64,000 bases of DNA. Source: Natrinema mahii (GTDB lineage Archaea; Halobacteriota; Halobacteria; Halobacteriales; Natrialbaceae). A program made the position numbers and the translations under genes. The notes under the pieces are model-generated. The model did no database searches and was not told the DNA's origin. It saw nothing but the letters and a program-made list of their open reading frames with translations. This document shows positions 38,762 to 40,627 of this stretch, in pieces (the first letter of the stretch is position 1; each line of letters opens with the position of its first letter). The stretch lies in assembly GCA_000690595.2 (NCBI GenBank), contig JHUT02000005.1, positions 61,254 through 125,253 of the forward strand. Direction: 5' to 3'.

Positions 38762-39293
38762 CTCTAGTGAGTCACTCGCTGGAACCGATAAAGAAGGTTG
38801 CGAACAGCCGCGCTCAATCCAAACTCGTACTCGAGTAGTATTCTCTGCGACAGTCAAAAATAACAAGACGATCCAAGGAGCAGAGCGGAGATGGGATTTC
38901 AACAGGTAAATGAGGAAAATCATCGCTCGCGACCATAGTTTAAAAGGGTTAACGCTTTATCTGGTGGGTCGTTGGCAGGTGCGTTCCGAAAAGCCTGCGT
39001 TTCATTCAATGGAGGCATTTCCAAAGCCACCAGTACAATAGTTTGATACCTCTCTAGATTGAGCGGTTTCAGATAATATCCATCGCCGTGAGCTGAGACT
39101 AGAGTACGTCGGCAAGAACAACTGGAAGCGAAACCACCGTCATGATCATTGTGTCTCTGTTTTGACGTGTGCGAGTTGATGTGCAGTCACGGCTGCCAAT
39201 CCGTCCCTCTCGTTGCAGTCTAAATAAATATCTTCAGTAGATTATTCTAAGTCAGAATACAGTCAGAGGGTTAATTAAGATGTGCCGTAACTT
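38762..39293. other. AT-rich intergenic region, about 530 bp, no gene seen
   Basis: From about 38920 the base composition drops visibly relative to flanking genes and stays low to about 40450. No credible coding frame, RNA or terminal repeat was found. The first 60 nt hold the ppsA promoter. A partial palindrome GTACTCGAGTA lies near 38825. Confidence 0.5.
39271..39279 (+). promoter_or_regulatory. TATA box of the halocin-like pseudogene
   Basis: TTAATTAAG sits 20-25 nt before the in-frame ATG (39294) and GTG (39300) starts, so the promoter is intact and would give a leaderless message; spacing fits the GTG slightly better. Confidence 0.5.
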
Positions 39294-39932
39294 ATGCCTG
39301 TGGAGAAAGATAATAGCAATCGGCTATCCAGGTGAAATGTTATCCGATCAACAGCAGGTCTATCCAGTCTCGGTCTCGCCCCTCTCTTTGCCTCTGGTAC
39401 GGGAGCAGCGGCATCGGGTACTCGAGGGAAATACGGCTACGAGATCGACGACAGTGGCCATCTCGTCTACGAGGGCGACGACGACGCTATCCTCGCTACG
39501 GTAGAGGGGATGAACAAGGCGCACGACGACGGAGAACTCGATTTCGCAATGGAGAATGGCGTAGTCGTGACTCAGTCGCAATCACAGTTTAAAAGCGGTG
39601 AGATGACCACTATGGGCTGCGCTGGTAAGAACAAATACAAGAAATCCATCACGGGTGGCGGATTCAGGCATAAATTCTGGATGGATCACTGCAACTGTAA
39701 CGACATCATAGATATGCTTAGTGTCGGTGTTGAGCTGGGTGTGCTTTCCGCAGCGATTAGCGCGATCTACGGTAATATCCCGGCTGCGGTTGCCAGTGCG
39801 GTCGCTATATTCCTCATGCGAACTGCTAAGGCTCTAATCAGTAATAACGATGAGGGCGAGGGTATCGTAATCGGCATTACTATGGGCTTTGTGGGCGGGG
39901 GTCTCAAGGGCGGAGGAATCGAACCTCAGTAA
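39294..39932 (+). pseudogene. Tat-exported halocin-like small protein interrupted by one in-frame TGA
   Basis: Read from ATG 39294 (or GTG 39300), the frame is continuous for 212 codons except TGA at 39333-39335. The N-terminus reads NRLSR*NVIRSTAG followed by a hydrophobic GLSSLGLAPLF and a likely AxA cleavage site. One C-to-T change (CGA to TGA) would account for the stop, and CGA would complete a perfect SRRNVI Tat motif. The mature part has DHCNCND, two hydrophobic stretches (MLSVGVELGVLSAAI; IPAAVASAVAIFLM) and a Gly-rich end. This layout resembles secreted haloarchaeal bacteriocin-like peptides, but I recognise no named family. A shorter ATG at 39510 remains intact but lacks a signal. 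Confidence 0.6.
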
Positions 39933-39963
39933 TCTACTGAACCCACCGAACCATCATACCACA

Positions 39964-39974
39964 AAATATTTATG
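39964..39974 (+). promoter_or_regulatory. TATA box of the two-helix membrane protein gene
   Basis: AAATATTTATG is centred 28 nt before the ATG at 39997, giving an independent leaderless promoter for this short gene. Confidence 0.55.
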
Positions 39975-39996
39975 TTTACTTGTAACTAAAACAACA

Positions 39997-40206
39997 ATGG
40001 TATTTGAAACAGGATTCACGAAAGACCCGAGAATATCCGTGTTCATGCTCGTACTTTCGATCTTTGTCATGGCCTCATCCGTTTACTTTCAAGGTATTGA
40101 TGGAATCTTACGTGTAGATGATTTTTGGGAAACGCTCATATTCTTCACTGGAGGTGCGCTTGGGCTGATTTCGCTGTTTTCTCTGGTCTGGGTTGCTTTG
40201 CGTTAG
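39997..40206 (+). CDS. Two-helix membrane protein, candidate immunity protein
   Basis: A 69-residue protein with a charged start (FETGFTKDPRI) and two membrane helices, VFMLVLSIFVMASSVYF and LIFFTGGALGLISLFSLVWV, joined by an acidic loop GIDGILRVDDFWE. Codon use is AT-rich, unlike the neighbouring core genes. It lies 64 nt after the halocin-like frame with its own TATA box. Small two-helix proteins encoded beside secreted peptides often give self-protection; that role is inferred from size, topology and context only. Confidence 0.6.
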   Translation: MVFETGFTKDPRISVFMLVLSIFVMASSVYFQGIDGILRVDDFWETLIFFTGGALGLISLFSLVWVALR

Positions 40207-40346
40207 GGGTCAGAATCAGTATCGGCAAATTCGATTTTTGAGATTGCGTACTCGAGTACATCTATCATTCAAAATAAAAGAAATACTCCCCGAGTGATAT
40301 CTCCGCCTGCAGGGACAGTTGCCAGCTAGTTAGCTATCCGAACCAT
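40207..40346. other. AT-rich noncoding stretch
   Basis: Continuation of the low-GC island after the membrane protein. It contains a perfect 12-bp palindrome GTACTCGAGTAC near 40247-40258. The stretch 40433-40627 beyond the repeat is also gene-free and grades back to high GC before the phzF-like gene. Confidence 0.4.
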
Positions 40347-40432
40347 CTATAGTAGCCACTGAAAGTCAATAAACACCTGCTCGCGCGATAGCTTGCCGAT
40401 CAGTGTGTAAATCGTTTCAGTGACTACTATAG
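40347..40432. repeat. MITE-like palindromic repeat, copy 3
   Basis: An 86-bp near-palindrome whose ends CTATAGTAGCCACTGAAA and its complement pair at 17 of 18 positions. The interior (CACCTGCTCG...CGATCAGTGTGTAAATCG) corresponds to copies 1 and 2. It closes the right side of the low-GC island that holds the halocin-like locus. Confidence 0.85.
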
Positions 40433-40627
40433 CTTGATTTGAAAGTGAAGATCAGTGCTCTGACTGGACACCAATGGGCACGAGTTCCCAAAATTGGAAC
40501 GTGGTTCATCGTCTGAACGATACCACTGCCGGCCTCGAGCCTGAAGCATCCCAGGGACGCCGGCGACAGTCGCACTGATCACAGCACCGACGGCAACGGC
40601 CTGCTCACCTAATCGATTCGGCCAATA

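Follow-up and report, generated by a model that had tools for sequence, protein, structure and literature searches.

A candidate halocin-like toxin/immunity cassette in Natrinema mahii, probably reduced to its immunity gene by a nonsense codon

The stretch of Natrinema mahii DNA analysed here (the window, 64,000 nucleotides of contig JHUT02000005.1) contains, between the genes ppsA and phzF, an AT-rich segment at 38828–40627 that carries two genes on the forward strand. One of them, at 39300–39932, encoded a secreted protein of halocin-like appearance and is interrupted by a stop codon, while the other, at 39997–40206, is an intact gene for a 69-aa membrane protein. The first-pass annotation, which had been made from the letters alone, described the interrupted frame but not its intact neighbour; nor did it recognise that the cassette is foreign and mobile, that relatives have repeatedly lost the secreted gene, or that translation probably began at a GTG.

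The interrupted frame, if read from 39294 to 39932, comprises 213 codons, of which 211 are sense codons, one is an internal TGA (39333–39335) and one is the terminal TAA. It translates as MPVEKDNSNRLSR, followed by the stop and then by NVIRSTAG...EPQ up to the terminal codon, so that the stop falls within a twin-arginine (RR) motif. A recount confirmed the earlier statement that this TGA, between NRLSR and NVIRSTAG, is the sole internal stop. The part of the frame after the stop has matches in 15 of 125 genomes of the same taxonomic family, the best one being an intact gene of N. pallidum DSM 3751, which is 76% identical to the window over all 198 post-stop residues (E = 9.6e-97). The homology also reaches upstream of the stop, where N. 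pallidum reads VEKSHSNLLSRRNVIRSTAG and has CGA in place of TGA. Since an intact gene matches both all of the post-stop residues and the upstream part, the frame is not open merely by chance. In addition, the relatives possess residues matching NRLSR upstream of this position, so that the refuting outcome named in the first-pass annotation did not occur, and the codon aligned with the TGA, the second Arg codon of the motif, specifies Arg in all eight relatives compared: it is CGA in five (N. pallidum, G053, G056a, Natrinema sp. SYSU A 869 and G056b) and CGG, AGG or AGA in the others. The earlier proposal of a Tat substrate that is one substitution away from an Arg codon is thus borne out by an orthologue with a complete RR motif, and we regard the secreted gene of the window, as judged from its sequence, as a pseudogene created by a single-substitution nonsense mutation in the RR motif.

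The beginning of the gene has to be revised. Position 39300 of the window corresponds in the alignment to a GTG start in the closest relatives (in G053 it is one codon off), therefore the native start is probably the GTG at this position and not the ATG at 39294 from which the frame had previously been read. A shorter ORF at 39510–39932 (140 aa, no signal) was rejected as a separate gene, because it is open only by virtue of its parent frame and its start has no support. Downstream of the stop, positions 39336–39413 encode what used to be the hydrophobic core and the cleavage region of the signal (NVIRSTAGLSSLGLAPLFASGTGAAA), which are kept in the relatives and are assigned to the Tat class by the motif. 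Likewise, the intact relatives show an RR motif, a hydrophobic stretch and a cleavage region of small residues, a combination that predicts Tat export as far as the motif goes. Next come an acidic pro-region (39414–39617) bearing the V-x-x-x-N-x-A-x-x-x-G block of the family alignment and the C-terminal core (39618–39929), presumably the active part, in which the same alignment places the segment CAGKNKY...DHCNCND..., hydrophobic helices, an N-x-x-G-x-G segment and the PQ end. The entire post-stop frame has three cysteines (residues 95, 119 and 121). In a structure model of the secreted protein, strands flank the helices, but the confidence of the model is low (pLDDT 48.8) and it was not relied on. 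When codon substitutions were assigned to branches, the window branch showed no excess of replacement changes, the counts being too small to reveal relaxed constraint or to date the loss.

Upstream of the secreted gene, an alignment of six cassettes places a TATA-like element, TTAATTAAG, at 39271–39279 (forward strand), about 25 nt before the GTG at 39300, a spacing that would fit a leaderless haloarchaeal transcript. The promoter had been called intact in the first-pass annotation; the element is indeed there, but the window copy has diverged from the version of the relatives, most of which have a CGAAATATTNAATA-like element. The window promoter matches the consensus of the other cassettes in 27 of 40 columns, while those cassettes mostly reach 82–91% (G077, 65%), which is suggestive of promoter decay. 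Further upstream lies an imperfect palindrome, TTCT-N4-CAGAA (39245–39257, forward strand), exact in five of the six aligned cassettes and constant in position across the cassettes carrying it. It occurs once in the window (0.10 copies expected by chance), about 42 nt before the GTG, and may possibly serve as a regulator site. The membrane gene probably has a promoter of its own, CAAAATATTTA at 39962–39972 (forward strand), because an element of the AAAATACTTA type (CAAAATACTTA type) is aligned about 25–30 nt before its ATG in all six cassettes. A scan for sigma-70 promoters and terminators was set aside, as its model does not cover archaea.

The membrane gene at 39997–40206 is modelled as a two-helix protein (pLDDT 73.6). 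It is present in exactly seven of the 125 genomes of the taxonomic family, and in all seven it adjoins the secreted gene or its remnant, a co-occurrence characteristic of a bacteriocin-type pair. It is open in every one of these cassettes, and its pairwise dN/dS values are mostly 0.1–0.4, with dS saturated in some pairs. Most likely, it is the immunity gene of the cassette, as its co-occurrence with the secreted gene and its two-helix model suggest. In G056 (L026, 6927–7932), three tandem candidate immunity genes follow one intact secreted gene, one copy being strongly diverged (46% identity to that of the window).

The interval between ppsA and phzF is without this cassette in all 28 other Natrinema-type genomes. 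The inserted sub-segments have a GC content of 0.33–0.52, lower than anywhere else in the 64 kb (window value, 0.67), and the resemblance of cassettes from different species does not extend beyond the cassette borders. It follows from these three features that the cassette was acquired and has moved between sites. The ppsA–phzF gap itself varies across the genus: it is about 60 bp long in N. pallidum and G051, holds a 2-TM gene of about 170–250 aa in many other genomes, or contains the cassette, and may be an insertion-prone site. Beside the cassette there is a MITE-like inverted repeat (40334–40445; 31-nt arms, 77% complementary, 50 nt apart), which may be unrelated to the cassette movement.

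Comparison of the seven cassettes that have the 69-aa partner reveals an asymmetric loss. The secreted gene is intact in three (N. pallidum, G053 and G056) and lost in four, and the partner is retained in all four disrupted ones. The lesions are a nonsense codon in the window, a 1-nt deletion in N. gelatinilyticum, a frameshift elsewhere in the gene in G077 and a deletion in G051. In the last case, the flanks are 94–96% identical to those of N. pallidum and about 1.6 kb is missing, which reduces the secreted gene to its final ~29 codons and leaves the membrane gene open. No two lesions are alike in both kind and position, hence the losses arose independently, and the same variation in type and location led us to reject programmed frameshifting as an explanation of the frame breaks.

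Furthermore, with a profile built from the intact members of the secreted family, 23 of 392 genomes of the order, belonging to 16 of the 95 genera sampled, gave matches. Common to the members are the RR leader, the pro-region containing the V-x-x-x-N-x-A-x-x-x-G block, the segments C-x-GKN and N-x-x-G-x-G, and hydrophobic helices in which small residues are frequent; the C-terminus is often PQ or SQ. No Pfam or NCBIfam model matched the family at a meaningful score, a search of PDB sequences with the secreted protein gave nothing convincing, and no relatives of the gene were found on the viral contigs searched. Among plasmids a single relative was found, on a plasmid of Natrinema sp. SYSU A 869, where it is annotated as hypothetical. 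This homologue (L133, 20004–20603, NZ_CP082247.1) lacks an obvious in-frame start ahead of the RR motif and is annotated from just past it (WP_222913350.1, hypothetical); it may be defective or mis-annotated.

An ORF predicted to contain two or more TM segments begins no more than 650 nt downstream in 26 of 36 family loci (27 if the transporter beside the strain's own second copy is counted) vs. 2 of 35 control genes, the figures being indicative since the control was small (the 35 annotated genes of one Natrinema plasmid, treated in the same way). The partner types swap between subfamilies, and some members have no evident membrane partner. The search with the G063b-type partner gave low-scoring matches in many genomes and was left out of the co-occurrence evidence. 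As scored by eye from three-frame translations, and hence indicatively, the secreted gene is disrupted in 10 of the 36 loci (the window, N. gelatinilyticum, G077, G051, G353, G203, G077b, G137, G130 and G034), and nine of these ten retain an intact membrane ORF. The genome of the window strain has a second, distant member of 233 aa (G000:C3:6977-7615, L077), which is apparently intact and has no small membrane gene beside it. In two relatives that belong to different families, G018:C2 (L095, ~3496) and G137:C1 (L092, reverse strand, ~3943), the coding sequence is divided at a TAATG into one ORF for the Tat leader with the pro-region and another for the core; in both, a GGAGG lies just ahead of the second start. 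Such an arrangement may be a real two-polypeptide form of the precursor. The second ORF of G137 also holds an in-frame TGA. The locus G018b, initially considered broken, was taken off the broken list on account of its TAATG-coupled ORFs and the GGAGG before the second start.

Taken together, the conserved gene pair, the nonsense codon as compared with intact relatives, the insertion of foreign composition and the asymmetric loss are best accounted for by a halocin-like toxin/immunity cassette that the TGA has made immunity-only in the window strain; we put the probability of this explanation at roughly 0.6, toxicity and immunity being conjectured from analogy. In a complete cassette, the precursor encoded by the first gene would be exported by the Tat pathway, and its hydrophobic, glycine-rich helical C-terminal core would be released outside the cell by proteolysis. 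By analogy with halocin C8 and with halolysin-activated precursors, the released core may act on the membranes of sensitive haloarchaea. The second gene, expressed from its own putative promoter, would provide a two-helix membrane protein shielding the producer, in the manner of class II bacteriocin immunity. In the window strain, one substitution would have changed the codon for the second Arg of the Tat motif to TGA, such that translation should halt after 11–13 residues, inside the motif, and nothing would be exported. With the partner intact, the strain would therefore be a resistant non-producer, and we infer that losses of the first gene have been favoured by selection.

An error of sequencing or assembly, with an intact gene in the strain itself, is an improbable origin of the TGA. 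A single base accounts for the difference from N. pallidum at the stop, the TGA rests on one assembly, and an error would agree with the lack of excess replacement changes on the window branch. But the base-error rates of assembled genomes are ordinarily far below the proportion of disrupted family loci, about a quarter, which gives a true lesion a much higher prior than an error; moreover, the promoter of the secreted gene has diverged too. Still more improbable, to the point of being negligible, is the idea, raised in the first-pass annotation as a read-through switch, that export is turned on and off by regulated read-through or recoding at the TGA. The frame after the stop is open and well conserved, but this is also anticipated after a recent loss; the stop is private to the window genome at a position that is otherwise always Arg, other broken relatives have different lesions at other sites, and no recoding signal was seen.

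The gene pair may also be real without being a toxin with its immunity protein, for instance if the secreted protein is a signal or a surface factor and its partner a receptor or a membrane anchor. We consider this unlikely, yet worth more than passing attention, as the family has no annotation, some members are without a partner and the toxic function itself is deduced by analogy. Against it, the membrane gene outlives the secreted one and the partner types swap, which would be unexpected for a receptor deprived of its ligand, and the GC content and movement suit a conflict cassette. Finally, self-protection might come from the N-terminal region of the precursor, with some other role for the membrane gene. 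The precursor of halocin C8 yields both HalI and the halocin (PMC11509114), and a pro-region is present here as well; it has just ~70 residues, however, and the membrane gene survives when the precursor is lost, making this explanation quite improbable.

We favour the toxin/immunity cassette. A broader proposal, which we make tentatively and at somewhat less than even odds, is that of a new and widespread haloarchaeal family of antimicrobials that leave the cell by the Tat pathway, act on membranes and have membrane immunity partners that can be exchanged, carried by small mobile cassettes that repeatedly become immunity-only. If true, this would be an archaeal counterpart of the producer/resistant/sensitive dynamics studied for colicins. 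To our knowledge, few halocins are known at the gene level, and immunity has been explained mainly for halocin C8. The family is defined by sequence, has candidate dedicated immunity genes and offers a natural set of alleles, some intact and others with nonsense codons, frameshifts or deletions, next to conserved partner genes. Thus, it becomes testable in haloarchaea whether these proteins kill, and whether immunity is kept after the weapon has been lost, as in bacteria.

The earlier label "halocin-like" holds by analogy, given the Tat leader, the pro-region, the hydrophobic helical C-terminal core and the adjacent small membrane gene, but it finds no backing in protein family models, and the halocin C8 layout appears to be lacking. 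Membership in halocin C8, judged on cysteine content and the Pfam and NCBIfam models, is not supported; it fails because of the cysteine content, the HalC8 peptide being Cys-rich whereas the frame described here has few cysteines. What the two have in common is their haloarchaeal origin and a precursor destined for the Tat pathway, in which an N-terminal region precedes a hydrophobic C-terminal peptide. Unlike halocin C8, where a single Tat-exported precursor, ProC8, is the source of the immunity peptide HalI as well as of the halocin HalC8, so that immunity lies inside the precursor, the present system has a separate conserved membrane gene next to it as the immunity candidate (PMC11509114). 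HalH4 and HFX_0892/HapP are, in the part of the source available to us, halolysin-activated secreted haloarchaeal precursors whose helical active fragments are freed by an extracellular protease, and by this description our system is similar in having a secreted haloarchaeal precursor and a helical fragment; that same part describes no dedicated membrane immunity partner for them, whereas a candidate one is found here (PMC12893001). From the class II bacteriocins of bacteria the cassette differs in being archaeal, in its Tat signal as opposed to the class II export route, in a longer pro-region and in having no sequence relation that we could find. Nevertheless, the arrangement is alike: a small secreted helical effector is encoded beside a gene for a small membrane immunity protein, and the immunity proteins CbnZ, LagC and LciM are likewise small, with 1–4 TM segments and a very variable length (PMC6957408). 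Orphan immunity genes are discussed for bacteriocins too.
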